Shown here in pieces: positions 24,231 through 42,375 of a stretch of DNA of 64,000 nt. The stretch covers positions 62,001 to 126,000 of the forward strand of contig NZ_LAHA01000011.1 of assembly GCF_002608075.1 (NCBI RefSeq). The letters are read 5' to 3'. The DNA is from Nostoc linckia z4 (GTDB lineage Bacteria; Cyanobacteriota; Cyanobacteriia; Cyanobacteriales; Nostocaceae). The position numbers and the translations under genes were made by a program. The notes below the pieces were generated by a model that was not told where the DNA came from, ran no database searches, and saw only the letters and a list, made by a program, of their open reading frames with translations. Position 1 is the stretch's first letter, and every line of letters starts with the position of its first letter.

Positions 24231-26546
24231 TTACGTGGAAGTCCCTAATTCTTGACTAGTTTCAGAAATCACTGTGACACAGGCATTTACTAGGGGTAAG
24301 AGCGGCCCTAGTTGCTCTTGTCCATTGACGGCTAAATCACTGTGACACAAATAAACTCTTTTGGAGACACGAGAGAGCAAATCTGCCAAAATGCGGCGCA
24401 ATCTTTGTTGTTCTGCTACTTTTTCATTTTCTGCTGTCCAAGGTTCGCCTAATCTGTCTTGAAGGAAAAACGGCGCACCAAACAATGTTGCGGCTCCACC
24501 TTTAGCCCATAGAGGCGAACCAGCGTCGAGCCAAAAATGCCAGCGATGCGATCGCCTACTAGACCGATATTGAAATATAGTTGCTAAAGTTACAGCTTTT
24601 CTGGCTCCACCAATGGGACGCACTGGGTAAGGGTTGGCGGTGATGGTACCGCGTCGCAGTAGTTGAATGAATTCGGTGATAGTGGCTGCTGACGCAGATG
24701 AAGAAGACAGGGAGAGGGGGAGACGCACTGACGCGGGGAAAGAACTCTCCGCGTCCCCGCGTCCCCATGTCCCCGCGTCCTCTTCCCCTATTCTTCCAGA
24801 AGATGTTTGTCGCAACCTTGTATCAATTTCCCAGTAGTGTTGGGCAGTTTCCAGTAATTCCCGCAGTGCTGCTAGTTGTTCGTAGGGGAGATTGCTACCA
24901 TTCCACAAAAAACGCACAATTGCTCTATCTAACAGGGAAATGGGGCTGGGAATTAAACGCTGTTCTTGTTGCGATCGCTGTTGTTCTAACCACTGTAATA
25001 TCTCGTTATAAGCTGTGCTGGCTGCATAGCCGATTCTATCCCAGCGCTCGAAGGCTGATACTGGTAACAAGTTGGGGCGGTCGGGATGGGGTACAAAGCA
25101 GTAATCTGCGATTAAACCAGCGCGTACCGGGTCAATGTCAGTAATGAGTGCTGAGTGAAGAGTTAGGAGTGAGGAGTTAGGAGTGGTGAGTGGCGAGTTT
25201 TCTGATGGTTTTTGTTTTCTGCTCAAGACAACCAACATTTCTGCTACGGCATCCCTGTCTACAAGGCGTCCCAAGCCGGGATAAACTAGTGCCAGCATGG
25301 TGAGTAATGCCCGAATTACTGGCGAACTAATTAACGGACGTTGGTCGTTGAGGGATTCTATTTGGATGTTTTGCTTGACGAGGATTTCTACTAAGGTATA
25401 ACGAGCGATGGCATCCAAACCCGGTGCTATAATTGCTACTTCTTCTGGTTCCACTTGCCTCGATTGGATGGCATTGGCAATTACTTGTGCTGTTAGCCGC
25501 AATAATTGGGCGCGGGAGGTGGTTTGAATTGAGTGGACAATTTCGGGTAAGCTCAATGGCATTATGGAATGTGTGACTAATTCCACCATTTGTGTCGCTA
25601 ATTGTTGTCCTAGTGACTCTGGAGGCGGCCCCGTTAAGGTTTCTACCCGACAACGGTCTGCTAAACCTTCAAGGTAGTTTGGATCTGCTCCCAATCCCAA
25701 TCGCACTGCACCATCGGGATTATAGCTAAAGGCCCCCACTGCACCTTGGTCTAGAAGTAACTCAAACAACAGACGCGCTACACCAGGATAATCATCGACA
25801 TCATCCGCTAGTACTGCTTGATAGCGTTTTGTTAAGTGCTTTTGGTAATTGCGATCGCTTAATAAATGCTGGCTATAAAGTTCAGTAATAATCCCATAAG
25901 TTAGTAATCCCCTCTCTAAACACCAGTTACGCCAATCTAACAGCAATGAGGCCAAAAATTCCGGCTCTAAGTTTGTACTATTTTCCCCCAGACCCCTAGC
26001 TAAAATCTGGGCGATTTCTTCACAAGGTACACCGCTATAAGCTGCTAATTGAAATAAGTCTAAGATGCGACGCACTAAACGAGACTCATTCACACCCGCA
26101 AGACGTAAAATTTCTGCGTCTAATTGGGAACGCCATAGTTTAGTCGCCAACTCTTGTTCGGTTTCCGGCCGCAATCTCACTGGAAACTGTGCCTTAAGGT
26201 TCAATGAATTAATTAGCAACGGCCAAAATAAAATAATCTCATCCTGAAAAAAACCCAACGGTGTCTTACCACGAACCGGATATTTTCCTGATGTTGATGT
26301 AACAATTTTATCTCCTAATTCTCGACGATTATCATCATTAGCAGCTAAGACTAAAACTCCTGGTTCTGTTGGCTTAAGATATAAAAATTTAGAGACATTA
26401 TCACCTTTTTCATGTCCTTGGCTTTTAGTATAAAATGAATCAATATACGTATTTTTAGGTTTTACCCAACTACAAAATTCCTCTACTAAGCGAGTTGTCT
26501 TACCACTGCGGCTAGTGCCAACAATCCAAATCGAATGAGAAATCAC
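24231..26546 (-). CDS. UvrD/RecB-like P-loop ATPase (cyanobacterial helicase-like family)
   Basis: 771 residues. Walker A is GTSRSGKTT (residues 10-18) and a Walker B-like VLADDVDDYP lies near residue 252, as in superfamily I DNA helicases and AddB/RecB-type proteins. Cyanobacterial homologues are often annotated as recombinase-family or helicase-like proteins. I see no clear C-terminal Fe-S or RecB nuclease signature. Two low-complexity inserts (DNA about 25140-25200 and 24700-24793) are in-frame intergenic-type tandem repeats. DNA repair or recombination is the likely area, but activity is inference. Confidence 0.65.
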   Translation of the reverse strand: MISHSIWIVGTSRSGKTTRLVEEFCSWVKPKNTYIDSFYTKSQGHEKGDNVSKFLYLKPTEPGVLVLAANDDNRRELGDKIVTSTSGKYPVRGKTPLGFFQDEIILFWPLLINSLNLKAQFPVRLRPETEQELATKLWRSQLDAEILRLAGVNESRLVRRILDLFQLAAYSGVPCEEIAQILARGLGENSTNLEPEFLASLLLDWRNWCLERGLLTYGIITELYSQHLLSDRNYQKHLTKRYQAVLADDVDDYPGVARLLFELLLDQGAVGAFSYNPDGAVRLGLGADPNYLEGLADRCRVETLTGPPPESLGQQLATQMVELVTHSIMPLSLPEIVHSIQTTSRAQLLRLTAQVIANAIQSRQVEPEEVAIIAPGLDAIARYTLVEILVKQNIQIESLNDQRPLISSPVIRALLTMLALVYPGLGRLVDRDAVAEMLVVLSRKQKPSENSPLTTPNSSLLTLHSALITDIDPVRAGLIADYCFVPHPDRPNLLPVSAFERWDRIGYAASTAYNEILQWLEQQRSQQEQRLIPSPISLLDRAIVRFLWNGSNLPYEQLAALRELLETAQHYWEIDTRLRQTSSGRIGEEDAGTWGRGDAESSFPASVRLPLSLSSSSASAATITEFIQLLRRGTITANPYPVRPIGGARKAVTLATIFQYRSSRRSHRWHFWLDAGSPLWAKGGAATLFGAPFFLQDRLGEPWTAENEKVAEQQRLRRILADLLSRVSKRVYLCHSDLAVNGQEQLGPLLPLVNACVTVISETSQELGTST
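24700..24793. repeat. In-frame tandem repeats inside the helicase-like gene, insert A
   Basis: gggagacgcactgacgcgg and cgcgtccccgcgtccccatg units, the same style as intergenic repeats at 22075-22112. They encode a low-complexity segment (SSGRIGEEDAGTWGRGDAES...) of about 30 residues without breaking the frame. Confidence 0.7.
25140..25200. repeat. In-frame tandem repeats inside the helicase-like gene, insert B
   Basis: gagttaggagtgaggagtta units (the reverse complement of the ctcctaact repeats seen between genes). They encode the serine/leucine-rich segment NSPLTTPNSSLLTLHSAL. The frame is preserved. Confidence 0.7.
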
Positions 26547-28160: not shown

Positions 28161-29444
28161 ATGAAAAAGATATTTTCGGAATTAGGCAAGTTTCACAACT
28201 TTATTGCTATCAGTGGGCTTGTAGTTTTATTAATTTCTTTGTTGAGGATGCAATCTTTGGCAAATCCAAAACTCAGTCCGCCAGAATGTCGGGTGAAAAA
28301 GTGGGATATACCAGTGTCGTTGACGAGTGAAAAAGAAAATGCATCTGTTCAACAACAAAAACCAATATTAATTCCCAGGACACCAGTTACTTGTTGTCAG
28401 AGTGATGCTTCTTGTTTAGATGAGGCTATTTATGGAGAAATACCAGATAAAAAGGCATTATTAACAGCTATCGATCGCAGTTTACAATACCTACAAACAA
28501 AAGCAGCTGCAAATGCTTACCAAAATTATCAAGTGAGTGGAATTAGCCGCGATCGCATCTTCAAAAGTTTACAAAGATTCCGCGAAATTCTCTTAAAAAC
28601 TAATTCCCCAACGGAGTTACATCAAGCCATAGAAAAAGAATTTATTTATTATCAATCAGTTGGTAAAGATAACAAAGGCGCTGTTTTATTCACTGCTTAT
28701 TACGAACCACTTTACGCAGCGAGTCGCGTCCCCACAGCAGAATATCGCTATCCTGTTTATCGATTACCTCCTGATATCAACTCCTGGCCTAAACCTCATC
28801 CTACACGCCTACAATTAGAAGGAGCAGACGGCTTACAAGGTGCAAAGTGTAAATTACGAGGCTTAGAATTGTTTTGGTTTCGCGATCGCCTCGAACCATA
28901 TATGATTCAAATTCAAGGTTCAGCGAAACTTAAACTAACTGATGGCACTCAAACAAGTATAGGTTATGCAGGTAATACTGCTTATAATTACCAAAGCATT
29001 GGGCGAGAATTAATTAATGATGGCAAATTACCGCAAGAAGGTGTAACTATGCCCATGATTCTCGATTATTTCCAAAAACATCCCCAAGAATTAGATATTT
29101 ATATTCCCCGCGATCGCAGCTTTGTTTTTTTTCAAGAAAACCACGGCGAACCAGCCCAAGGTTCTATCAATGTACCACTAACAGCAGAGCGTTCTATTGC
29201 TACAGATAAATCTCTCATGCCCCCCGGTGCTTTAGCATTAATTCGCGCCCCTTTTCCCTTAGTTAATTCTACTGGAAACATGGAACAACGCATTATTAGC
29301 CGCTATGTTCTCGACCAAGATACCGGCGGCGCAATTAAAGGTGCAGGTAGAGTGGATTATTTTTTAGGTACTGGTAAAATTGCAGGCGATCGTGCTGGCG
29401 TGACAGTTAGTAATGGACAATTGTTTTATCTATTACTGAAGTAG
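28161..29444 (+). CDS. mltA: Membrane-bound lytic murein transglycosylase A
   Basis: 427 residues. An N-terminal hydrophobic helix (FIAISGLVVLLISLLRMQ) serves as signal or anchor. The MltA domain follows (FTAYYEPLYAASRVPTAEYRYPVY; EGADGLQGAKCKLRGLELFWFRDRLEPYMIQIQGS), then the 3D domain with DQDTGGAIKGAGRVDYFLGTG near the C-terminus carrying the catalytic aspartates. The enzyme cleaves peptidoglycan glycan strands to 1,6-anhydro ends. No lipobox is obvious. It lies 1.7 kb upstream of the T4SS-like cluster, separated by a regulator and a gene-free stretch, so a VirB1-like role is only speculative. Confidence 0.9.
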   Translation: MKKIFSELGKFHNFIAISGLVVLLISLLRMQSLANPKLSPPECRVKKWDIPVSLTSEKENASVQQQKPILIPRTPVTCCQSDASCLDEAIYGEIPDKKALLTAIDRSLQYLQTKAAANAYQNYQVSGISRDRIFKSLQRFREILLKTNSPTELHQAIEKEFIYYQSVGKDNKGAVLFTAYYEPLYAASRVPTAEYRYPVYRLPPDINSWPKPHPTRLQLEGADGLQGAKCKLRGLELFWFRDRLEPYMIQIQGSAKLKLTDGTQTSIGYAGNTAYNYQSIGRELINDGKLPQEGVTMPMILDYFQKHPQELDIYIPRDRSFVFFQENHGEPAQGSINVPLTAERSIATDKSLMPPGALALIRAPFPLVNSTGNMEQRIISRYVLDQDTGGAIKGAGRVDYFLGTGKIAGDRAGVTVSNGQLFYLLLK

Positions 29445-29929
29445 AAGTCAGAATTCAGAATTCAGAATTCAGAAGTCAGAATTCAGAAGTCATACCAATT
29501 CACCAAAATATTGATACACATACAATAACCTGTAGGGGCGAACGGCTGTTCGCCCTGAATTCAGAATTTAAAAGTTACGGCTGATGTAAATTAAGAGGAG
29601 GTTTAAATGATTTAGTTATCTGCTTTACTCGTACCGTAACCCATTCATATTAAACATAACTTATGTTTTGTCTTTATCTATTATCTCGTTAAAATTACTA
29701 TTGGTAATCAAGCTTATACATGATTTATTTTTACTAATCACACAGTATTTTAACGAAATTAAACTACGTAATCTAAGTCTCAAACCCTTGGCACAGAGAT
29801 TATTTGATTTCTGAATTCTGACTTTTGAATTCACCAATGATAGTTAATAAAAATTTTTAGTAATTTGCCAGATAATATTTTTTTGAATGCTAGGATATAA
29901 GACTATAGATCAAAAAAAGTGCTGTACCT
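29445..29929. repeat. Intergenic region with AATTCAG tandem repeats and a hairpin
   Basis: agaattcagaattcagaagt units at 29447-29490 recur throughout the downstream T4SS-like cluster. A palindrome at 29536-29555 (gggcgaac/gttcgccc) is a common dispersed hairpin. The rest is A+T-rich, without a gene. The promoter of the XRE regulator should lie after 29840. Confidence 0.65.
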
Positions 29930-31143: not shown

Positions 31144-31773
31144 ATGTTTAGACAAAGTTCTCACCAGAGAAACTTTTTCCAAGCTTTAACTGGTAGTGTA
31201 GCCACATTAGGTCATAAATCAAGACTGGCGTTGAAATCCAGTTTGAGTATTTTGGTTGAATCTGTACCTTTTTTGATTGCTTGTGCTGTATTTTTAACAG
31301 TTATCAGCTTCAAAAGTCCTATCCTGCTATTTTGTTTATTAGTTGGTAGTTTAATTGCAGTCATCACTCATAAAATTGGACAGCAGGTAAATTTACCAAG
31401 GCGATCGCTAATAATCATACAAATTTTAGCAGCAGCGATCGTTCTGAGTTTGTTTTGGTTAGATCAGTTTGCTAGTCCCGCACAAGCACAGTTTTTTGGC
31501 GAAGCAGAAAAGTTTTTCAAAAAAACCTTAAATGATGGTTCCACAGGAAATAATGCAGGTGGTAGCGACACCGCAGTCAGTTTAATATTTAATATATTGC
31601 GGGCACTTTTCTTGCTATATATTGCAATTTCTTTGGTTGGTGTAATTAATGCAGTTCGTAAAGATGAAGATTGGCAAAGTATCGCCAGAACTCCCCTATT
31701 AGTGGTTGTAGCTGTTACCATTGCTGATGTACTCACGCGGTTTGTAATTGGCAATAACAATAGCAGTAATTAA
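31144..31773 (+). CDS. Multi-pass protein with pilin-like C-terminus (VirB2-like candidate)
   Basis: 209 residues. The N-terminal part has hydrophobic segments at about 41-58, 60-75 and 88-105, then a signal-peptidase-I-like SPAQA|Q site at residues 111-116. Cleavage there would leave 94 residues with two membrane helices (about 144-168 and 182-202) around a short basic loop (VRKDEDW). That is the layout of VirB2/TrbC pilins, and the gene is in VirB2 position, two genes ahead of virB4. I recognise no sequence family directly, so the role is inferred from topology and order. Confidence 0.6.
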   Translation: MFRQSSHQRNFFQALTGSVATLGHKSRLALKSSLSILVESVPFLIACAVFLTVISFKSPILLFCLLVGSLIAVITHKIGQQVNLPRRSLIIIQILAAAIVLSLFWLDQFASPAQAQFFGEAEKFFKKTLNDGSTGNNAGGSDTAVSLIFNILRALFLLYIAISLVGVINAVRKDEDWQSIARTPLLVVVAVTIADVLTRFVIGNNNSSN

Positions 31774-31787
31774 TTAAGATTTGAGAA

Positions 31788-32159
31788 ATGTCTGAAGAGC
31801 GGGAACAAGAATTTCGTCCAGTTAACCAAGTTCTAGGAAGCCAACCTTCATTAGGGCCAATTCCGGCAGATCAAATTCTTCCTTGGACAGTAATCGCTTT
31901 ATCATCCTACTTAATTATTAATGGGATTTTTGGCGGGCTTTTCCAAGAAGAATTTCAAAAATGGCTGTGGACGCTATTAATGACTGGTTGGGGAATTGCC
32001 ACCTGGTGGATATTAACTGGTGGGAGAAGTTGGAGCTTTTTAAGTAAATTTATTGGCGTTCCCGCTTGGACAAGAGGCTTTGCTCGTTATCAAAGCTTAC
32101 TGGAAGTTAACCATGAAGCAAAAAATCGGAAAACAAAGCGTCGGCAGCGCCGGAAATGA
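31788..32159 (+). CDS. Small two-helix membrane protein (VirB3-like candidate)
   Basis: 123 residues starting 15 bases after the previous stop. Two hydrophobic segments (PWTVIALSSYLIINGIFGGL and LWTLLMTGWGIATWWILTGG, about residues 32-80) are followed by a conserved-looking FIGVPAWTRGFARYQSLL and a very basic tail (KNRKTKRRQRRK). VirB3/TrbD proteins are short, have one or two helices and precede virB4, sometimes fused to it. Here the frame overlaps the VirB4 start by 47 bases. Identification as VirB3-like is inference. Confidence 0.6.
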   Translation: MSEEREQEFRPVNQVLGSQPSLGPIPADQILPWTVIALSSYLIINGIFGGLFQEEFQKWLWTLLMTGWGIATWWILTGGRSWSFLSKFIGVPAWTRGFARYQSLLEVNHEAKNRKTKRRQRRK

Positions 32160-34860
32160 AACTAGATTAACACCCTTTGAAGATGCCTTGCACTTGGCGA
32201 CAATGTTGCGCGTCTCCATGAATGGACGTGATATTGGTGCTTATTTGTTAACAAAAGGCATTCAAAAGGATCGGTTCTGCTTTGTTTTTGGCTTTGATTG
32301 TAAGGGAATTCATACCACTTTAAGACCAGAACAAATAGATACACTTTTTAATAACATTGAAGCCGGGTTAAAAGATATTCCCAGCGGTGAAAGAATGACA
32401 CTGCATTTGGGGTCTTTTAGTTCAGATACAGAACGGCAAAAAGAATTAGCATCACTCATTAGAAATGCGCCATCAAAAGATATTAAATATTTGCTGATGG
32501 CCGAGAGAGCGAGAATTAAAGAACTGACTAAAGCTGGTGTACGAAAGCCGAAATTTTTACGGATTTATGTCACCTACACAGTGGAAACAACCTCAAAAAA
32601 TGCAGATGATTGGATAGAAAGGTTTTTAGTCAAAGCCGAGGCATGGTGGTTGAAATTTAAAGGCGAACTTTCAGAAGCCGAAAACCAACGCCTAGAAACG
32701 GTAATTAGCAATGCTTACAAACAAGGTTTTTCCCGTTGGGAACAAATTTTATCTAACAAAATGGGATTGGATGTTAGAGCTTTGAGTGCAGTGGAACTTT
32801 GGCAAGACATCTGGAGAAGATTTAATGATACCCAGCCTATAGATATTCCCCAACTTATTACCTTGGATGAAGAGGGACTCCACGAAGAAGTTAATTCCGA
32901 TTTAGCTAGTAGCAAATTGTTGATAGATAATATCCACGGTACAACTTTGCTCATGGAGTCTAGCGTACCCCGTGCCGATCGCCGTTGGGTACATGTGAAC
33001 AATCGTTTTACTGGCACTATGTCATTTCTGGAAAAACCCGGTGGCTGGCCAAATAAATCGGCTCAACTGCGGTATTTATGGGAACTGTTAGCCAGAGAAA
33101 CAGTAGTAGATACAGAAATTTTTTGTGAATTGACTGCGGCAAATCCAGCATTAGTGAAAACTACTCTCCAACGAGTGCTGAAGCAGTCAAATATGACCAC
33201 AATTTTAGCTCAAGAAAAAAGTAAAACCATTGATGTCAACGCCCAATTAAAGTTAAAAAAATCGGTAGCAGCACAAGAACAATTATATGAAGGGGCAGTG
33301 CCGATTTATACAAGCGTTGTCATTTTGGTACATCGGCCAACTGTGGAGAAATTAGACGAAGCCACAAGATATATTGAAAACTGTTTCCAACGTCCAGCTA
33401 GGGTAATTCGAGAAACCGAGTACGCCTGGAAAATTTGGTTGCAAACTCTCCCCATAGTTTGGGAAGGTTTATTAGCAACACCATTCAATCGTCGTCAGTT
33501 ATATTTAACCAGTGAAGTTCCGGGATTAATGCCTTTAGTTTTAACTAAAAGAGGCGATAGACAAGGCTTTGAATTGATTGCAGAAGAAGGTGGAACGCCA
33601 GTACATTTAGATTTATTTAATCAACACAAAAATTTAGCTTTATTTGCCACCACTCGTGCTGGTAAATCGGTGTTAGTATCGGGAATTTTAACTCAAGCTT
33701 TAGCCTATGGCATTCCCGTAGTGGCTCTAGATTTTCCTAAACCTGATGGTACGTCTACTTTTACCGACTATACACAGTTTATGGAGGGGAATGGAGCTTA
33801 TTTTGATATTTCCAAACAATCGAATAACTTATTTGAACAGCCAGATTTAAGAGCGTTAGATCCAGAACAACAACGCGATCGCATGGTAGATTATACCTCG
33901 TTCCTAGAATCAGCTTTAATGACAATGGTTTTAGGCTCATCTACCGAAAGTCAAATTTTATCTCAAACGGTGCGATCGATTCTCAACTTAGCCTTAGAAG
34001 TCTTCTTTGCTGATGAAGGTATCAAAGAGCGATATCGCAAAGCAATGGCGGGAGGCTTCGGTTCTCCAGCTTGGCAAAAAACCCCGACTTTAAAGGATTT
34101 TCTGTTTTTCTGTTCCCCAGAACATTTACAGCTCAGCTCCTTAAGTGGCAGAGTAGAAGATGCCCTCAGTCAAATTCAGCTACGCTTACGTTTCTGGCTT
34201 TCTAGCCGCGTTGGACAAGCCATTTCTGCACCATCCAGTTTTCCCACCGACGCCCAACTTTTAGTTTTTGCTCTCAGAAACCTTTCAGATAGTGAAGATG
34301 CGGCTGTACTATCCTTAAGTGCTTATTCAGCAGCACTCAGACGCGCATTAAGTAGCCCCGCTTCTATATTCTTTATCGATGAAGCCCCGATTTTATTTGA
34401 ATTCGAGCAAATTTCCGACTTAGTGGGTCGAATTTGTGCCAACGGAGCCAAAGCCGGTATCAGAGTTATACTATCAGCACAAGACCCTGACACCATCGCC
34501 AAATCTAAAGCCGCCTCAAAAATTCTGCAAAACTTAACAACTCGATTAATTGGACGTATTCAACCAGTTGCAGTGGATAGTTTTGCAGACATATTAAAAT
34601 ATCCCCGTAAAATTATCGCTCGTAATGCCTCAGAAAGCTTTTTCCCACGCAAAGAAGGCATTTATAGCCAATGGCTGCTAGATGATAACGGCGTTTATAC
34701 ATTCTGTCGTTACTATCCAGGTTACGAACAATTGGCAGCGGTGGCCAACAACCCCTACGAACAAACTGCACGCAGTCAAATGATGCAAATTCATAAGGAT
34801 AAATATGAAGCAATTTCCGCATTTGCACGTCAGTTAGTAGCTACACTACGTAGTAATTAA
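32113..34860 (+). CDS. VirB4/TraC-family secretion ATPase
   Basis: 915 residues from ATG at 32113 (the frame is open to 32053, inside the previous gene). Walker A is TTRAGKS at residues 513-519 (FATTRAGKSVLVSGIL), Walker B is FFIDEAP with D756/E757, and the sensor glutamine lies in ILSAQDPDT. The N-terminal 480 residues are the divergent VirB4-type region; HLDLFNQHKNLALFATTRAGKS is typical of VirB4/TraC. In conjugation systems VirB4 energises pilus assembly and substrate transfer at the inner membrane. It is the best-supported member of the cluster. Confidence 0.85.
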   Translation: MKQKIGKQSVGSAGNETRLTPFEDALHLATMLRVSMNGRDIGAYLLTKGIQKDRFCFVFGFDCKGIHTTLRPEQIDTLFNNIEAGLKDIPSGERMTLHLGSFSSDTERQKELASLIRNAPSKDIKYLLMAERARIKELTKAGVRKPKFLRIYVTYTVETTSKNADDWIERFLVKAEAWWLKFKGELSEAENQRLETVISNAYKQGFSRWEQILSNKMGLDVRALSAVELWQDIWRRFNDTQPIDIPQLITLDEEGLHEEVNSDLASSKLLIDNIHGTTLLMESSVPRADRRWVHVNNRFTGTMSFLEKPGGWPNKSAQLRYLWELLARETVVDTEIFCELTAANPALVKTTLQRVLKQSNMTTILAQEKSKTIDVNAQLKLKKSVAAQEQLYEGAVPIYTSVVILVHRPTVEKLDEATRYIENCFQRPARVIRETEYAWKIWLQTLPIVWEGLLATPFNRRQLYLTSEVPGLMPLVLTKRGDRQGFELIAEEGGTPVHLDLFNQHKNLALFATTRAGKSVLVSGILTQALAYGIPVVALDFPKPDGTSTFTDYTQFMEGNGAYFDISKQSNNLFEQPDLRALDPEQQRDRMVDYTSFLESALMTMVLGSSTESQILSQTVRSILNLALEVFFADEGIKERYRKAMAGGFGSPAWQKTPTLKDFLFFCSPEHLQLSSLSGRVEDALSQIQLRLRFWLSSRVGQAISAPSSFPTDAQLLVFALRNLSDSEDAAVLSLSAYSAALRRALSSPASIFFIDEAPILFEFEQISDLVGRICANGAKAGIRVILSAQDPDTIAKSKAASKILQNLTTRLIGRIQPVAVDSFADILKYPRKIIARNASESFFPRKEGIYSQWLLDDNGVYTFCRYYPGYEQLAAVANNPYEQTARSQMMQIHKDKYEAISAFARQLVATLRSN

Positions 34861-35101
34861 TCAGGGAGGATATCTATGACTGGTTGATAGAAATTCCAAA
34901 AATTATCTAAAACTACCAAACAAAAAAATATTGCAAAATCCACTGTGGAGTGGGCATCTTGCCCGCTGAAAAACGAAGGTGGGCAAGATGTCAACCACCA
35001 AAGAATAATAATTTAATCTTGAAAAAAACTGAATAATACTTCAGCTGAATAAATTTCTGACTAACTAGATAATTTCGTCTACCTTTTTCAGGTACAGATA
35101 T
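34861..35101. repeat. Spacer with inverted repeat after the VirB4 gene
   Basis: An inverted repeat, catcttgccc (34955-34964) with gggcaagatg (34981-34990), of a dispersed type, could form a terminator-like hairpin inside the cluster. No gene. Confidence 0.5.
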
Positions 35102-35905
35102 ATGCGAAAAACTACCATTTTGACATTGACTTTCGTATTTCTGGGAATTCTACCTGTAGCAGCCCAGTTTACCACAAACAAATCACAATTAGGCCAAGTT
35201 TGGAATGATTTTCAATCATATTCCACAGATTTACAAAACTACTTTCAATACAATTTAAACGATAACTTAAAACCTGTAGAACTCCAAAGTAGGAATGCTC
35301 TAAATAATGCCAAAGGAGAATTGAATATACCAAACCCCGTGAGTGCAGGGGATAAAGTTCGCGATGATTTAATTCTCTACTCTAGATCGGATCGCTTTGA
35401 AAATAATGCAGCTGTGAGGGGAAATTTAGTTAGTAATGAACTTAATCGTGTAATTACCCGTGGAGCCGCAGCAAGTTTACTAGGGGAAAATGGACAAATT
35501 CGCTCAAAAATCAAGTTAATCGATACAGAAAGAAGTTTACAAAATATTTCCGGCTTTGCTGAAGCAGCCGAAGAACAAACCCAAAGTTTATTAAGTAAAA
35601 TTCCTATCCCAGTTTTTGATGCAAGTAAACTCGATCCAGCAACAGCAATATTAGCGCAATTACTGAATGCCAATCAATCACAAAGCATTAAAATTCAACA
35701 GGAACAATCAAAAATTATCGGTGAAACATTTGCCCAGACAATACAAACTAATCAATCTTTGCAATACTCAAATTTAAATTTAGCCAACATTTCCGAACAA
35801 ACAGAAGAAGCAAATCGCGCTCGCAGAGTTGAAACATCAAGCGAAGCAGCGCGACTTTTACGAGCGACTTCTCAAATAGATTTATTTGGCAGAAAAGATA
35901 ATTAA
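35102..35905 (+). CDS. Exported helical protein (VirB5/TrbJ-like candidate)
   Basis: 267 residues with a textbook signal peptide (ILTLTFVFLGILPVAAQ, cleavage near residue 21). The mature part is predicted almost wholly helical, rich in Q, N, S and E, with no cysteines; coiled coils are likely around residues 140-160 and 190-250 (SQSIKIQQEQSKIIGETFAQ). VirB5/TrbJ proteins are exported, helical and encoded between virB4 and virB6, matching this position. No sequence motif proves it. Confidence 0.6.
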   Translation: MRKTTILTLTFVFLGILPVAAQFTTNKSQLGQVWNDFQSYSTDLQNYFQYNLNDNLKPVELQSRNALNNAKGELNIPNPVSAGDKVRDDLILYSRSDRFENNAAVRGNLVSNELNRVITRGAAASLLGENGQIRSKIKLIDTERSLQNISGFAEAAEEQTQSLLSKIPIPVFDASKLDPATAILAQLLNANQSQSIKIQQEQSKIIGETFAQTIQTNQSLQYSNLNLANISEQTEEANRARRVETSSEAARLLRATSQIDLFGRKDN

Positions 35906-35908
35906 GAA

Positions 35909-35946
35909 GAATTCAGAATTCAGAAATCAGGATTCAGAATTCAGAC
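35909..35946. repeat. AATTCAG tandem repeat in the T4SS-like cluster
   Basis: gaattcagaattcagaaatc-type units in the spacer between the VirB5-like and VirB6-like genes. Confidence 0.7.
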
Positions 35947-36083
35947 ATTTCTGGACATTGTAGGAGTGAGTTATCAATGAATTGAATTTGAAATTTTAAC
36001 TTTTGACGAAGCAGCGTCAAATTTTCAGTTTAGTCTGGTGTTTTAGTATAAAAATCATAAAAAATCGCCGTAAGCTCAAAATA

Positions 36084-37133
36084 ATGCAACTTGCTATTCC
36101 ACGAATTTTTGCCCAAGTAGGCATTGATGAAATTCTTGATAATGGTGTCGCCACTTCCCAAAGTATTGCCGAAGGTTGGGACAAACAATGGCTAGATTTA
36201 TTACAAAATAACACCAATAATAACCTGTATGGAACCTTGACGAATGTAGGTATTTTCTTTGCAGTGGGAACCCTATTATTTTTTATGGTACAATTCCTCA
36301 GGGATTTATTAACTTATGAATATACTCGTCCCATATCAGCATTAATTTGGCCCTTTGTAGTAGTAATACTCTTAAATAATTCAGGCAACGGCAGTATACT
36401 TTCTAATTTGACACTGGGGGTGCGTAATTTTATAGATACTGCAAATCAGCAAGTATTGACCACAGCAGATGCAGATAAAATGTACCAACAAGCTTTGAGT
36501 ATGAGTGTTGCTGAAGAGGTAGCGGGTTCTTTCCTGCGTCCTTGTCAGTCCCTAACTGGAGAACAGCAAAGTCAATGTTTTGCCAAAGCTGCGGAAAAAG
36601 TAAATATTCTCTGGCAAAAATATCGAGATTCCTACGGGAATAAAAACTGGATATCCAGACTACAAACGAAGGTAGATAATATTAGATATGGCACGGGTAT
36701 TGTATCGGAAGCCGCATTTAATTCTTTATTAGGTTCTACAGTACAAACTAGCATCAAAAACTTTTTAGTTTCCTTACAATACGCCTTTCAAAATTTAATA
36801 GAAGCAACGATGTTGCTGATAGCAGCTTTAGGGCCTGTTGCTCTGGGTGCTTCTTTATTACCTGTAGTCGGTAAACCAATTTTTGCATGGCTGACTGGAT
36901 TTTTATCCATTGGAATTGCCAAGATTTCATTTAATATTATTGCTGTGTTAACTTCGGCAGTTATTGTTAATGGCCCCGGTCAAGATGCTAATGTTGACCC
37001 AGACTTAATGTGGTTCATGATTTTTCTGGGAGTTCTAGCACCGATTTTATCCTTAGTTGTGGCTGCTGCTGGGGGGTTTGCAGTGTTCAGTGCTATCAAT
37101 AATGCAGCTTCTTTAGTCAAGGAGAGAATATAG
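36084..37133 (+). CDS. Polytopic membrane protein (VirB6/TrbL-like candidate)
   Basis: 349 residues from ATG at 36084; the frame extends to a TTG at 36003. Hydrophobic segments: about 56-73 (LTNVGIFFAVGTLLFFMVQF), 84-100, 239-264 (ATMLLIAALGPVALGASLLPVV), 269-295 and 317-340. A periplasmic-type loop with a C-x10-C pair (CQSLTGEQQSQC) lies near residues 153-164. VirB6/TrbL proteins have five or more helices plus a large loop and follow virB5, as here. Function in channel formation is inferred. Confidence 0.62.
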   Translation: MQLAIPRIFAQVGIDEILDNGVATSQSIAEGWDKQWLDLLQNNTNNNLYGTLTNVGIFFAVGTLLFFMVQFLRDLLTYEYTRPISALIWPFVVVILLNNSGNGSILSNLTLGVRNFIDTANQQVLTTADADKMYQQALSMSVAEEVAGSFLRPCQSLTGEQQSQCFAKAAEKVNILWQKYRDSYGNKNWISRLQTKVDNIRYGTGIVSEAAFNSLLGSTVQTSIKNFLVSLQYAFQNLIEATMLLIAALGPVALGASLLPVVGKPIFAWLTGFLSIGIAKISFNIIAVLTSAVIVNGPGQDANVDPDLMWFMIFLGVLAPILSLVVAAAGGFAVFSAINNAASLVKERI

Positions 37134-37135
37134 TT

Positions 37136-37180
37136 AAGAATTCAGAATTCAGAATTGAGAAGTCAGAATTTAGGAGTCAG
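37136..37180. repeat. AATTCAG tandem repeat in the T4SS-like cluster
   Basis: gaattcagaattcagaattg units immediately after the VirB6-like stop codon. Confidence 0.7.
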
Positions 37181-37304
37181 AATAATTAAAGAATCATGAT
37201 AAAAATATGACAATATATAACAATATTAAATCATTTGTTCAAAAAAATATATCGCCTATCATCATATATAACAACCAAAAATTTTTATCGCAGGAGGTGA
37301 TAGC

Positions 37305-38129
37305 ATGGTACGTTTACTAGAGAAAAGAAAAAAAACGGTCAGTGTCTTAACAATTTTTGCGATCGCCACCTTTAGTTTGCATTTATTCATCTTACTATTA
37401 TTTTTATTTCAAGGCATAACTATTCGTCAACTGAGTTTGAGAAGACCTCCAAATTTCGTCCAATTAATAGATGGGAAAAAAGTAGATGAAATTGATGATT
37501 TAAAAAGAGATCCAGAAGCAATTCGTCAATTCATCAGCAAAACCATGATTGCAATGTTTAAGTGGTCAGGAACCTTACCCCCACAAAAAATTGAAGAAGT
37601 CGCAAATCCTAAAGCAGATTTGGGAATATTAGTTAGAACACCCCAAGGCGGTAGTCAAAAAATTAGTACCACTAGTTGGATAGCTAGTTTTGCTTTATCA
37701 GAAGACTTTCGCAAAGGTTTCTTAAGCACAATTGCCGAAATCACACCACCGGAAGTGTTTTCTGAAAATCCCAAACAAGGAATGACATCAGAGTTAGTAA
37801 TTAAACGGATTTACCCGCCAAAAGAAATTGCCCCAGGTCAATGGCGAGTAGGTATGGTAGCTGATTTAGTTCAAAAAAATCGCGGTGATGATAGAAGAGT
37901 CATAACTCCTTTTAACAAAGATTTTCTCGTGCGTGCCACAGATTATTTTCCTAATCCCCAAATGGAAAGTAGCACTGACCTGCAAAAAGCAATTTATAGC
38001 GTCCGCGCTGATAGACTAGAGATTTATGAAATTCGAGATTTATGTTTGTTAGATAACTACAGTAACCTGAATGAAGCTCAATTAAAAGAATGCAAAATTC
38101 AACAAAAAACAGATAATTTTATCAGATAA
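37305..38129 (+). CDS. Bitopic membrane protein (VirB8-like candidate), copy 1
   Basis: 274 residues from ATG at 37305, with a strong ribosome site (CAGGAGGTGATAGC). A short cytoplasmic basic N-terminus, one helix (about 17-38, IFAIATFSLHLFILLLFLFQG), then a soluble domain of about 230 residues ending in DRLEIYEIRDLCLLD. One N-terminal helix plus a periplasmic NTF2-like domain is the VirB8/TraE plan, and the position after the VirB6-like gene fits. The next gene encodes a related protein of the same plan. Confidence 0.58.
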   Translation: MVRLLEKRKKTVSVLTIFAIATFSLHLFILLLFLFQGITIRQLSLRRPPNFVQLIDGKKVDEIDDLKRDPEAIRQFISKTMIAMFKWSGTLPPQKIEEVANPKADLGILVRTPQGGSQKISTTSWIASFALSEDFRKGFLSTIAEITPPEVFSENPKQGMTSELVIKRIYPPKEIAPGQWRVGMVADLVQKNRGDDRRVITPFNKDFLVRATDYFPNPQMESSTDLQKAIYSVRADRLEIYEIRDLCLLDNYSNLNEAQLKECKIQQKTDNFIR

Positions 38130-38130
38130 A

Positions 38131-38367
38131 AATTCAGAATCCAGAATTCAGAATTCAGAATCCAGAATTCAGAATTTATAAAAGGTCTAGTATACTTAGT
38201 AGTATAGTAAAATTAAAAATTATTATAGAATCTTTGTTGAGCTTCGAGAACGAAATAGTGTACTTCACTAAATTCAAATATACTGTATATCCATTGCTAA
38301 AACCTTCTCTTGACTTCTGAATTCTGACTCCTGAATTCTGACCCCTGACTCCTGACTCCTGACACAC
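38131..38367. repeat. Spacer with AATTCAG and CTCCTGA tandem repeats
   Basis: atccagaattcagaattcag units at 38140-38175 and ttctgactcctgaattctga units at 38310-38364, in inverted orientation, bracket an A+T-rich centre. A 63-codon frame there is repeat-derived. Confidence 0.65.
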
Positions 38368-38385
38368 GATAACAACAAATTATTA

Positions 38386-39078
38386 ATGCAGATATTTAAA
38401 TCAGAAAATAAAAAAAGTAACGCCTTACCACTGTTGGCAGTAGGAACATTTGGGTTACATGTATTTACCTTACTGCTATTGATATTTCACGGGTCTATGT
38501 TACAACAGTTACGTCGGCAACTCACGCCTCAAAGTTTAGTACAACTCGTTGATGGTCGCGTGATTACAGCAGACCCCCAAGAGAATTTAGAGCGACAACC
38601 AGAAACTATTCGGCGCTTTGTAGCTGAAAGTATGAATCTAATGCTTACCTGGTCGCAGCAACAACCACCAACAACAGTCTGGGAAATTAGTTCTCAATTG
38701 GTGGCTGATGATTTTAAGCAAAAAATGAAATCACAAGTAATTAACTTAAACCCAGATAGCCAATTTGAAAATGTCAATCGAGGCACTGAAAATGTATTAG
38801 TAATCCAAAAAATATCTCAACCTACAAAAATAGGTAATGGTCAATGGAAAGTCGAGATATTTGCCAATCAATTGACTTTTAGCAGTTATGATAAATTGGG
38901 AAAATCAACTTCCTTTAATAAACAAATTTTAGTTAGAGCAATAAATGAGCCAGCAACTTCACTACCAAATGCGCCGCTACCGTCGCACTTTGCGGTTTAC
39001 CGCCTTGGTGAAGCCAGACTAGAAATTTATAATGTCTGTGAAATTCAAGATAAAAATTGTTCTGGAAATTCCAACTAA
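38386..39078 (+). CDS. Bitopic membrane protein (VirB8-like candidate), copy 2
   Basis: 230 residues. Same architecture as the gene at 37305: one N-terminal helix (LLAVGTFGLHVFTLLLLIFHG), then aligned landmarks LVQLVDGR, RRFVAESMNLMLTW, VLVIQKI, NGQWKVEIFA, FNKQILVRA and RLEIYNVCEI. The two are therefore diverged tandem duplicates that may form a heteromeric complex. The stop codon lies only eight bases before the VirB10-like start, so these two genes should be co-translated. Confidence 0.58.
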   Translation: MQIFKSENKKSNALPLLAVGTFGLHVFTLLLLIFHGSMLQQLRRQLTPQSLVQLVDGRVITADPQENLERQPETIRRFVAESMNLMLTWSQQQPPTTVWEISSQLVADDFKQKMKSQVINLNPDSQFENVNRGTENVLVIQKISQPTKIGNGQWKVEIFANQLTFSSYDKLGKSTSFNKQILVRAINEPATSLPNAPLPSHFAVYRLGEARLEIYNVCEIQDKNCSGNSN

Positions 39079-39086
39079 GCTTTACC

Positions 39087-40688
39087 ATGACTCAATATTC
39101 AATTCCGACAGAAACCTCTCCACCAAATTTATTAACTTTAGACACCGACGATCGCCAACTAGAAATAGAATATGACGATTGGGAATCACGGATGGCTAGG
39201 TTGGTTGGTTTTGAAGAAGAACCTGCTAGCGATGCCTTTCATAGACAAGGTCTAGGCCAAACAACATTAGAAGAAGCTGCAATATCCGAACCGTCATCCG
39301 AACCAGAAGAACTTAAAACACAGCAGCCCCTCTCATCTAATCCTTTTGCCAAATTAGGTCTAGTAGGTGCAGCTACCTTAGCAGTAGTTTTGGTGGCTGG
39401 TGTGTTTTTGTCGCAATTGATGAGTGGTAGTAGTCAAAAGCCCAGAAATAATCTTGTCACTCCACCAGTGCGATCGCAACCCACAAATCAAACAACTTCT
39501 GAACAGCTGCAAAGCGAAATCGAAACTCTGAAAACAAAATTAGCCCTAACCGAACAAGCACAGTCAGTAAAAGCCGCCCAAGAAAAGCTGAGAACGCCAA
39601 AACCAACTTCCACAGTAGCCTTGGCACAACCATCAGTTTCTTCCACCAGGAGACAGCAAGTGATACCCACACCCCCACCAACAGCTTACGTTCCTCAGCC
39701 AGTGACCATTGAGCGCATCGTCAGAGTACCAGCTCCCCAACCTTTACTAACACCCCAACTACCAGTTCTCAGACCAAACACTCAACCCGTAGTTACCATT
39801 ACCCCACCAGCCCCACCAAACCCATTTGATGAGTGGACAAAACTAGCAAAATTAGGTAGCTACGGCCAGGTCAATGTCACCGAACAACCAAATAACATCG
39901 CAGCTGCTCCCCAACCTACAAACGAAATGCAGCAGCCTCAGCAGCCACCCCAAGAAACACCAAACCCCAATCCCAGCGAACAACCCCCAGAACAGGGGCC
40001 TGCCGTAGTTAGCCAAGCACAACCACAAGGACAGAATACTGTAGCCATCGGTACTAGTGCCAAAGCCGTATTGGCAACGGCGATATTTGGCGAAACTACC
40101 AGAGGCGGTAATAACGGAGAACAAACAGATAAAAACGTATTTGTAGTTCGATTGAAAGAACCGCTAAAAGCCGCCAATGGAGAGGTCGCTTTACCCGCCA
40201 ACACCGAATTTCTCACTGAAATTCGTTCTATTTCCGAACAAGGTCTTGTGCAGATGAACATAACCAAAGTTATCTCACAAAATGACGGTAACCTCACAGA
40301 ACGAAACTTACCCAACAATTCGATTATTATTCGCGGCAACAAAGGCAGACCTTTAATAGGTAATAAATTTCCTGGTCAAAGTTCCTCTGTAGCATCAATG
40401 GATTTGGGACTATTTGTTTTAGGAGGTATTGGCAAAGCCGCAGAGTTATTAAATCGCACCGACGGCCAAGTCGTCACCATCAATGGTGGAAGTACAGTTG
40501 TGAGCAACACCAACACTGGAGAAAATATCCCAGCTGGCATCGTTGAAGGTGGTTTGAACTCCGTAGTACCGCAAATTGCCCAACGCAATCAACAGGCCAT
40601 CGCCCAAATGTCACAACAAACAAACGTTTGGTTTTTGCCAGCAGGCACAAATGTTGAAATCTATGTCAACCAAGCAACCCAATTTTAA
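39087..40688 (+). CDS. VirB10/TrbI-family T4SS core-complex protein
   Basis: 533 residues from ATG at 39087. An acidic cytoplasmic N-terminus is followed by one inner-membrane helix (about residues 90-112), a proline/glutamine-rich linker (about 120-310, PPPTAYVPQP, QQPQQPPQETPNP) and a C-terminal TrbI-like domain: GTSAKAVLATAIF, VALPANTEFLTEI, RGNKGRPLIGNKF, and the closing FLPAGTNVEIYVNQ. VirB10 spans from inner to outer membrane and gates the channel. Length, linker and domain order all fit. Confidence 0.82.
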   Translation: MTQYSIPTETSPPNLLTLDTDDRQLEIEYDDWESRMARLVGFEEEPASDAFHRQGLGQTTLEEAAISEPSSEPEELKTQQPLSSNPFAKLGLVGAATLAVVLVAGVFLSQLMSGSSQKPRNNLVTPPVRSQPTNQTTSEQLQSEIETLKTKLALTEQAQSVKAAQEKLRTPKPTSTVALAQPSVSSTRRQQVIPTPPPTAYVPQPVTIERIVRVPAPQPLLTPQLPVLRPNTQPVVTITPPAPPNPFDEWTKLAKLGSYGQVNVTEQPNNIAAAPQPTNEMQQPQQPPQETPNPNPSEQPPEQGPAVVSQAQPQGQNTVAIGTSAKAVLATAIFGETTRGGNNGEQTDKNVFVVRLKEPLKAANGEVALPANTEFLTEIRSISEQGLVQMNITKVISQNDGNLTERNLPNNSIIIRGNKGRPLIGNKFPGQSSSVASMDLGLFVLGGIGKAAELLNRTDGQVVTINGGSTVVSNTNTGENIPAGIVEGGLNSVVPQIAQRNQQAIAQMSQQTNVWFLPAGTNVEIYVNQATQF

Positions 40689-40872
40689 AAGATAATATCT
40701 ATCCCAATTTTCGGCTCTCACTTAACACTGAATCCTGGCTTATAAGGCATAGGAATTCGCAATTTGGAATTAGGTAATAATTTAGTAATTATTTTTCTTC
40801 CCTATCTTCCAATACGGTTGGGATAAGCTTTTTAGTTCCCTGTTGTGTCTACCAATATCCCCTTGTGCAACC

Positions 40873-41451
40873 ATGAAAAATAATACTAAGTTACCAGGAA
40901 ATATCCTCAAGAATTCCTATTTCCTACCAATAGCTTCCTTAATTTTCTCGGTTACTATGCTGTTATTGGTAGGTCGTGCCGTAGCTAATAATGCCGTTCT
41001 CCGCTCCATATTTTCCTGTCAAGGACAGGGTTTAGGAGGATTGTTACCCACCCTCCATGTTTCTTATCAACAAGGAACAAACTTAAGTTTTATTCCCGCT
41101 GGGGAAGTCATTAAAAAAGTGTGGTTAAACGATCCATCGCAAGTAACTATAGATTTTGATGGCCCAGTGTGTATGCAGTTTGGTCAAAAACCAAACACCA
41201 CTACCGGAGATTGTAAAAACTCAGCAGCCAACGTAATTCAACTTAGGCGAATTCCCAGATTAAATATTCCCGGACTTCCGAAAACTAGCAATACACTTTT
41301 AACAGTTGTTACTGAAAGCCAAGGTAGAAACAAACTGTATACTTTTCGAGTATTGTATGTCGAAAATGCTCCAGACTATCACACTCTAGCTATTTATCCC
41401 GATCCGCCTTCTGCTCGACAACCCTCTTGTGCAGTAGAACCACAACAATAG
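40873..41451 (+). CDS. Exported protein with VirB9/TrbG-like N-domain (candidate)
   Basis: 192 residues from ATG at 40873 (a TTG ten codons upstream is in frame). A signal anchor (IASLIFSVTMLLLVGRAVAN) is followed by a beta-rich domain: GTNLSFIPAGEVIKKVWLNDPSQVTIDF, VIQLRRIP, GLPKTSNTLLTVVTES and KLYTFRVLYVE. This sequence of elements matches the N-terminal domain of VirB9/TrbG/CagX (use of E-V-I, then TNLxVxT, then Y-x-F). The C-terminal VirB9 domain seems absent, so the protein is shorter than standard VirB9. The last member of the cluster. Confidence 0.55.
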   Translation: MKNNTKLPGNILKNSYFLPIASLIFSVTMLLLVGRAVANNAVLRSIFSCQGQGLGGLLPTLHVSYQQGTNLSFIPAGEVIKKVWLNDPSQVTIDFDGPVCMQFGQKPNTTTGDCKNSAANVIQLRRIPRLNIPGLPKTSNTLLTVVTESQGRNKLYTFRVLYVENAPDYHTLAIYPDPPSARQPSCAVEPQQ

Positions 41452-41814: not shown

Positions 41815-42054
41815 ATGATCGCTCCCAAAATGATGCAACAGCTCTGGGCTGTAATCGAGTCTACCCAGGTCAACACGCTGCTCCAGTTTGATGATGCGGC
41901 ATTAGTACAACTAATCCTCCAGCAGTTACAAGCTAAGCAAGGGCTTGATGCTCAAGTAGATAGCACACTCAATACTTACATAAAATCTAAACTGCCTCTA
42001 ATTCGCGATACGGCTGAAGGTCGATTATCGTTAGAACAAGGCGGCAATCATTAG
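41815..42054 (+). CDS. Small conserved-looking protein, function unknown
   Basis: 79 residues, start ATG at 41815. No signal peptide or hydrophobic helix; predicted mainly helical (LWAVIESTQVNTLLQF, LVQLILQQLQAKQGL). It lies 64 bases upstream of a small membrane-protein gene on the same strand, so the two may be one unit. No family recognised. Confidence 0.6.
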   Translation: MIAPKMMQQLWAVIESTQVNTLLQFDDAALVQLILQQLQAKQGLDAQVDSTLNTYIKSKLPLIRDTAEGRLSLEQGGNH

Positions 42055-42117: not shown

Positions 42118-42375
42118 ATGAATCACTGGCTAATAATTGCCCTGGTAGCTTATCTCATTGGAGCGGCAATTGAAGGGGTGAGTACAGCCAGTCAGCTCTC
42201 TGATTCTGCGCCAGAACTAGTTAAAAGCACACAAACTCAGTCCTTGGAGTCTGAGAATTCGCCTAATTTAAATTGGCGAATTGTCGCTGTTATTACTTCA
42301 GTAAGTATCTGTGCAGCTTTTTTCTGGCCTTGCCGCCTGCTTCACCGTTTTATTAAAGGAAAAGTTCACTCATAA
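42118..42375 (+). CDS. Small two-helix membrane protein, function unknown
   Basis: 85 residues with N-terminal (about 3-20, WLIIALVAYLIGAAIEGV) and C-terminal (about 53-72, IVAVITSVSICAAFFWPC) hydrophobic segments joined by a 30-residue polar loop. Not recognised. It is downstream of the T4SS-like cluster and the 79-residue protein; whether it belongs to either is unknown. Confidence 0.55.
   Translation: MNHWLIIALVAYLIGAAIEGVSTASQLSDSAPELVKSTQTQSLESENSPNLNWRIVAVITSVSICAAFFWPCRLLHRFIKGKVHS

Follow-up and report, generated by a model that had tools for sequence, protein, structure and literature searches.

A conserved chromosomal type IV secretion gene cluster of Nostoc-family cyanobacteria, related to plasmid conjugation systems and without a detected coupling protein or relaxase beside it

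Introduction

Why would a cyanobacterial chromosome carry the apparatus of a conjugation system apart from the genes that prepare DNA for transfer? The question is raised by nine genes of Nostoc linckia z4, at positions 31144 to 41451 of a stretch of 64,000 nucleotides (the window hereafter; positions 62001-126000 of contig C7 in genome G000, an assembly of 8.995 Mb in 130 contigs). A preliminary description had read these genes as a type IV secretion system (T4SS) or mating-pair-formation-like cluster, lying among chromosomal genes where the cyanobacterial class MPF_C is known from plasmids, and had left a choice between a secretion or DNA-transfer machine and the remains of an integrated element. 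Here we confirm that the cluster is a type IV secretion apparatus. We propose, with a probability of roughly 0.55, that an MPF_C-like conjugation apparatus, lacking type IV coupling protein (T4CP) and relaxase, was fixed on the chromosome at an early stage of the Nostoc family and has been kept for a job of the cell's own.

T4SS are counted among the secretion systems of cyanobacteria (PMC11424642; this and the other PMC citations refer to excerpts of the papers). Guglielmini et al. in 2011 described cyanobacterial T4SS without a relaxase (MOBless) and suggested protein transport, signalling or defence against grazers as their roles (PMC3158045). Relaxase-less systems have been known in cyanobacteria since then, and the Nostoc lineage is a variant of these; the excerpts of that paper hold nothing on this lineage, its extent, its VirB8 duplication or the absence of a T4CP. 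In the titles, abstract openings and passages of the literature that we consulted, supplements excluded, the nine-gene lineage is not described and no function is assigned to it, from which we claim no novelty in print. What we add is to mark off one chromosomal lineage, to show how far it extends and how it departs from plasmid systems, and to show that it persists in genomes without a detected T4CP or relaxase.

Results

The nine genes encode a type IV secretion apparatus

We compared the cluster with the best 80 of 251 related loci, in all of which VirB4 (B4) is at least 81% identical (two of them, L131 and L132, are from one genome), and with plasmid A of Trichormus variabilis ATCC 29413, which is typed as conjugative and carries a MOBV relaxase. 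The nine open reading frames (ORFs) all lie on the plus strand in the order B2-B3-B4-B5-B6-B8a-B8b-B10-B9. In the list, the starts of B4, B6, B10 and B9 are the likelier ones judged from the translations; plasmid A E-values are those of profiles built from the chromosomal proteins and run on that stretch's ORFs; and omega is the median dN/dS among 16 close Nostoc sequences (15 of the 80 loci and the window).

31144..31773, plus strand: virB2-like pilin precursor, 209 residues; plasmid A B2, 3e-23; omega 0.245
31788..32159, plus strand: virB3-like, 123 residues; plasmid A B3, 8e-23; in 80/80 loci; omega 0.065
32113..34860, plus strand: virB4 ATPase, 915 residues; Walker A and B; TIGR00929, E 5.1e-14; plasmid A B4, 0; omega 0.063
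35102..35905, plus strand: virB5-like, 267 residues, signal-like N-terminus by eye; plasmid A B5, 2e-14; omega 0.443
36084..37133, plus strand: virB6-like membrane protein, 349 residues, aligned across loci; plasmid A B6, 4e-62; omega 0.153
37305..38129, plus strand: virB8a, 274 residues; plasmid A B8, 4e-38; omega 0.220
38386..39078, plus strand: virB8b, 230 residues, tandem paralogue of B8a by hhalign; omega 0.166
39087..40688, plus strand: virB10/TrbI, 533 residues; PF03743, E 2.7e-6; plasmid A B10, 1e-50; omega 0.416
40873..41451, plus strand: short virB9-like, 192 residues, without the plasmid-type C-terminal stretch; plasmid A B9, 3e-36; omega 0.297

VirB4 and VirB10 had been called clear from the sequence. 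Both found the expected families, although below the curated cut-offs: B4 matched VirB4_CagE (TIGR00929) and TraC (E 2.5e-13) in NCBIfam, far below the cut-off in each case, and B10 matched TrbI in Pfam with 27.8 bits, under a cut-off of 35 bits. The Walker A motif of B4, TTRAGKS, is invariant except for A516 in eight aligned sequences, and the Walker B motif, FFIDE, is invariant in them. An ATPase with both Walker motifs and a VirB10/TrbI scaffold are the marks by which we assign the cluster to type IV secretion. The other seven proteins matched no T4SS family in Pfam or NCBIfam, and none of the nine matched the VirB11 family (PF00437), for which no genome-wide search was made. The reading of these seven genes as further VirB components was borne out by plasmid A, where the profiles found eight component families in the same order, and more of the proteins than the ATPase are recognisable.

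The putative names VirB9 and VirB5 follow homology to the plasmid set and position, not a match to a solved structure. Profile searches of B4, B10, B9, B8a and B6 against solved structures gave no T4SS match, and the AlphaFold model of B9 was unusable (pLDDT 44). For a low-confidence model of B8a (pLDDT 54), the top match in the PDB was VirB8 (4lso), with no match at E <= 0.001; the following ranks often held IcmL-like and TrwG/VirB8 entries, interspersed with unrelated folds. That B8a and B8b are tandem paralogues is indicated by hhalign (probability 100, E 4.6e-40).

Component alignments contained up to 28 chosen loci and the window, one of them omitting L079 and L121. The B2 alignment (24 sequences; L103, L116, L123, L129 and L133 omitted) shows a conserved P-x-x-A-Q-F-F region, followed by two hydrophobic segments flanking an invariant VRKDEDWQ loop. 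This region could be the cleavage site of the precursor, in a topology read by eye. Upstream of B2, the positions conserved in the 24 sequences are A/T-rich and scattered, besides a conserved stretch at the start codon, and an NtcA-like pattern occurs in 2/24; neither was informative. B4 (32113-34860) also matches the defence-protein model mad8 of PADLOC (E 4.4e-14), probably through kinship of the two ATPases.

The gene set is conserved, widespread and under purifying selection

All nine genes are present together and in order in 71/80 loci, far beyond chance. Neither of the outcomes that the preliminary description had named as refuting its reading, an ATPase recognisable alone or genes never found together, was thus observed. 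Nostoc punctiforme NIES-2108 (L080) is among the strains that carry the cluster. Eight of the nine incomplete loci stop at a contig edge; the ninth, that of Nostoc sp. T09 (L109), is degenerate and lacks B6, B8a and B9. B2 is retained in 79/80 loci and B5 in 78/80. Some VirB4 match was found in 168/192 genomes of the family, and the chromosomal type (identity >= 77%) is carried by at least 146/192, a lower bound with matches down to about 1611 bits; in 40 of these the gene lies more than 1 Mb into a contig. The 146 include G159, whose B4 has four stops, and G201, with 38% contamination; G139, at 74% identity, is one more carrier. Three genomes (G260, G241, G192) have two chromosomal-type copies each, about 81% and 77% identical to the B4 of the window.

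All nine genes are under purifying selection. Two neighbouring genes gave omega values of 0.18-0.19, and the largest pairwise value within the cluster was 0.85 (B5). The fastest evolution is that of B5 and B10, which might be expected of surface or linker proteins. Because the order is kept in 71/80 loci, carriage is wide and median omega is 0.06-0.44, the cluster is unlikely to be debris.

Beyond the family, one search gave no match above 62% B4 identity and another yielded two genomes, G393 (81%) and G422 (65%). A megaplasmid of Gloeothece verrucosa carries a B4 of 75% identity, and it too has two VirB8 genes; no B9 was seen in the stretch of it that was read. In a quick tree of 55 VirB4 proteins, 30 chromosomal ones and that of Gloeothece form one clade (support 100) against the 24 others, so the chromosomal lineage and this one megaplasmid stand apart from the plasmid-type conjugation systems. 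When B4 and rpoB trees of 30 genomes were compared, 9/27 splits were common to both (permutation mean 0.24, maximum 3) and the distances correlated at 0.59. Descent is likely to have been partly vertical, with some exchange between lineages, which we consider likely because the trees conflict at supported nodes.

At four loci (L213, L219, L224 and L135, from G166, G131, one copy of G260, and Gloeothece) B9 was not found beside B10; the second G260 copy (L223) breaks off within B10. Because of such loci, the VirB9-like part may be dispensable.

The chromosomal type differs from plasmid conjugation systems

Plasmid A and the Nostoc plasmid pTCL26-01_B, as MPF_C plasmids of the pCC7120alpha type, have structural homologues from B2 to B9 in the order of the chromosomal cluster. 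Behind an intron gene, plasmid A has a further short piece of B2, and its B9 is followed by one gene, a T4CP and then the relaxase; in pTCL26-01_B two genes lie between B9 and the T4CP downstream of it. Plasmid types have one VirB8 and a T4CP downstream, whereas the chromosomal type has two VirB8 proteins and neither T4CP nor relaxase. No plasmid-type set that was read has more than one VirB8, apart from that of the Gloeothece plasmid. What is more, the six plasmid-type B9 proteins aligned have in common a C-terminal stretch that looks helical by eye and is absent from the four chromosomal B9 proteins aligned, which are shorter. Only L134, L135 and L237 are named plasmid records; elsewhere "plasmid-type" refers to the sequence, and L043 lies on a contig of 1.7 Mb. 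The class MPF_C, which the preliminary description had brought up for comparison, appears to fit by homology to cyanobacterial conjugative plasmids, of which PLSDB types plasmid A as MPF_T. The label MPFc has been given to pCC7120alpha (PMC8600333).

Coupling protein and relaxase

With VirD4 of pTCL26-01_B as the query, no homologue was found among ORFs of at least 50 residues in the window or in the 80 loci. Three of ten control loci matched (L134, the query's own, L042 and L043); the remaining seven are either truncated stretches or have no VirD4, and the T4CP of contig C113, at 52.8 kb, is outside the 40 kb searched. At the level of genomes, 130/192 in the family have a VirD4 match, and 37 of the 146 listed carriers have none. 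Among the T4CP matches listed, none that shares a contig with a chromosomal B4 comes closer to it than 483 kb.

We searched 18 carriers without a VirD4 match, and two controls (G000, the window's genome, and G283), with the models TraG-D_C, Mob_Pre (PF01076) and Relaxase (PF03432). In G283 all three models matched. The nine-gene set is complete in 16/18 of the carriers, no B9 having been found in G166 and G131. Seven one-contig carriers (G301, G145, G150, G176, G196, G217, G231) have no TraG-D_C, Mob_Pre or Relaxase match and the complete nine-gene set.

In the window's own genome, where a full search for relaxase and VirD4 had been suggested, both kinds are present, on other contigs only. The one TraG-D_C match is on C113, which carries a T4SS of plasmid type itself. 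Since PF03432 matches lie on C84, C118 and C108 and PF01076 is unmatched, there is no relaxase match to these two models on C7. Within the searches made, the cluster was not found with the relaxase, coupling protein and adjoining integrase or plasmid backbone that mark a conjugative element or an integrative conjugative element.

Genomic setting

Genes for CemA, MltA, an M24 peptidase and initiation factor IF-3 are among the neighbours of the cluster in the window; these are chromosomal genes, as the preliminary description had it. It had also noted that no DNA-processing gene lies nearby, and we agree: none of 43 neighbours matched an integrase, transposase, relaxase, T4CP or plasmid-backbone family in Pfam. 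The Pfam scan covered the window; flanks of the other loci were clustered. The closest named B4 proteins, both 98% identical, are from Nostoc paludosum FACHB-159 and Nostoc sp. ATCC 43529, and two loci (L118, L127) lie within records of 8.5 and 8.4 Mb described as nearly complete genomes. Flanking genes are common only to close Nostoc relatives (two small downstream genes in 24/80 loci, MltA in 22/80, CemA in 21/80), because of which we regard the cassette, and not its chromosomal place, as the conserved unit. MltA (28161-29444), considered as a constant substitute for VirB1, was rejected on its presence near just 22/80 loci.

The two small ORFs directly 3' of the cluster are at 41815-42054 and 42118-42375, each in 24/80 loci, which belong to the closer Nostoc relatives. 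On the minus strand, 24231-26546 encodes a protein of 771 residues without a Pfam match, which is near the cluster in 14/80 loci and has a weak GajB-like match (E 8.8e-4). Heptanucleotide repeats of the AGAATTC type occupy gaps before the cluster (29443-29492) and within it (35908-35945, 37137-37183, 38131-38176, 38307-38363); we take them to resemble the short tandemly repeated repetitive (STRR) sequences of heterocystous cyanobacteria.

Relatives of VirB10 occur outside the cluster. An orphan VirB10/TrbI gene on contig C101 of the window's genome (L051:3678-5177) shares 45% identity with the B10 of the cluster, and the ORFs listed around it include no further T4SS gene; it has a relative at 73% in another Nostoc (G270), and genomes of genus g73 hold 3-9 B10-like matches. 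The protein all3984, annotated as TrbI in the PCC 7120 proteome (PMC8147232), was followed as a lead for B10 and rejected because it is 231 residues long and is not confined to the Nostoc family (PMC2823733). Two TrbI-like orthologues were reported as heterocyst-specific by Larsson in 2011, which may or may not include the cluster's B10 (PMC3141437).

Discussion

The gene content, its order and conservation, the selection on all nine genes and the missing T4CP and relaxase matches in the chosen carriers have to be explained together. A decaying remnant of an integrated conjugative element, one of the two readings offered earlier, would account for the missing T4CP and relaxase, and local decay does exist, in L109 and in the B4 of G159. 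Purifying selection in the nine genes, retention in at least 146/192 genomes and the lack of an integrase in the 43 neighbours scanned contradict this reading for the lineage as a whole and make it highly improbable; single strains could still fit it. The other reading, a chromosomal secretion or DNA-transfer machine, is supported by a cluster that is intact, lies among chromosomal genes and is conserved in much of the family.

Such a machine could be one for DNA uptake or release, a T4SS that acts without VirD4 and independently of conjugation in a role comparable to that of Helicobacter ComB or the gonococcal island system. The ComB operons of Helicobacter pylori are likewise chromosomal and without VirD4, and are thus a precedent for a T4CP-less T4SS acting on DNA (PMC13395361). 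ComB differs, however, in being of the MPF_T type and in importing DNA; it lacks VirB5, which is kept in 78/80 loci here, and it has a distant VirB11 gene (PMC13395361). Competence of a heterocystous cyanobacterium, moreover, is ascribed to type IV pili in a text in which a term search found no T4SS named (PMC9429965). On this balance we regard a DNA uptake or release machine as unlikely. Slightly less credible to us is a mating channel held in common, which plasmids equipped with a relaxase and coupling protein of their own would use in trans. It draws support from the 109 of the 146 listed carriers with a T4CP somewhere in the genome and from the Relaxase PF03432 matches in the window's genome, but it must contend with the 37 carriers without a T4CP match, with the seven one-contig carriers that have neither TraG-D_C nor either relaxase model, and with the window genome's T4CP, whose contig has a T4SS of its own.

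Several observations weigh against a conjugation apparatus fixed early on the chromosome and kept for the cell's own use. Only close Nostoc relatives have the flanking genes in common, and the B4 and rpoB trees disagree at several well-supported nodes. A B4 that is 81% identical (G393:C237:2014-4767) is found in another family of the order, in an assembly of 240 contigs, by transfer or contamination. The T4CP present in 109 carriers is a further such point, and three of the 18 tested carriers do have one type of match (G277 a partial TraG-D_C, G164 Mob_Pre, G125 Relaxase). The relaxase negatives cover PF01076 and PF03432 and not other relaxase families, and a one-contig assembly may omit plasmids. 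The 18 genomes, moreover, were picked for a missing VirD4, and therefore show that persistence is possible and not how frequent it is.

If the apparatus was nevertheless fixed early and kept, we infer that the change ran from the plasmid type to the chromosomal type. The job is probably other than DNA transfer, for example a surface filament or protein export. VirB2 and VirB5 are kept, as the building of a filament would need, and VirD4 is absent; with these, a surface filament or the export of Sec-delivered proteins would fit best. In systems whose structure is solved, the arches consist of VirB8 and the tip of VirB5, pilus assembly is driven by VirB4, and VirD4 brings in the substrates (PMC12624023). 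By analogy, VirB4, held in place through VirB3, through VirB6 and through the cytoplasmic tails of both VirB8 proteins, would power the extraction of VirB2 pilin from the inner membrane, and VirB8a and VirB8b would form a mixed arch. VirB10 and the short VirB9 would span the periplasm to the outer membrane, and VirB2 would polymerise into a surface filament with VirB5 at its tip. Any other cargo would have to enter from the periplasm following Sec export, since there is no T4CP; some T4CP-less T4SS do secrete from the periplasm (PMC4793230).

A more specific proposal, which we put forward tentatively, is that close to the origin of the Nostoc family an MPF_C T4SS was domesticated into an organelle of the cell that has no coupling protein or relaxase, with mixed VirB8a/VirB8b arches and a remodelled outer part, which in these multicellular cyanobacteria would make a VirB2/VirB5 surface filament or export proteins from the periplasm. 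Bordetella Ptl and Brucella VirB are protein exporters that, like the Nostoc cluster, have a VirB apparatus and no VirD4; unlike it, they are of the MPF_T type, have VirB11 and have a known role in infection. According to Abby et al. 2016, protein-secretion systems are known only in MPF_I and MPF_T (PMC4793230), and a domesticated MPF_C system would therefore be a third class.

Nostoc-family cyanobacteria matter for nitrogen fixation, multicellularity and symbiosis with plants and lichens. If our reading is true, a complete T4SS would be a standing chromosomal feature of many of them, and they would provide a case from nature of conjugation machinery maintained in the absence of coupling protein and relaxase, with natural changes in VirB8 and VirB9 to study.

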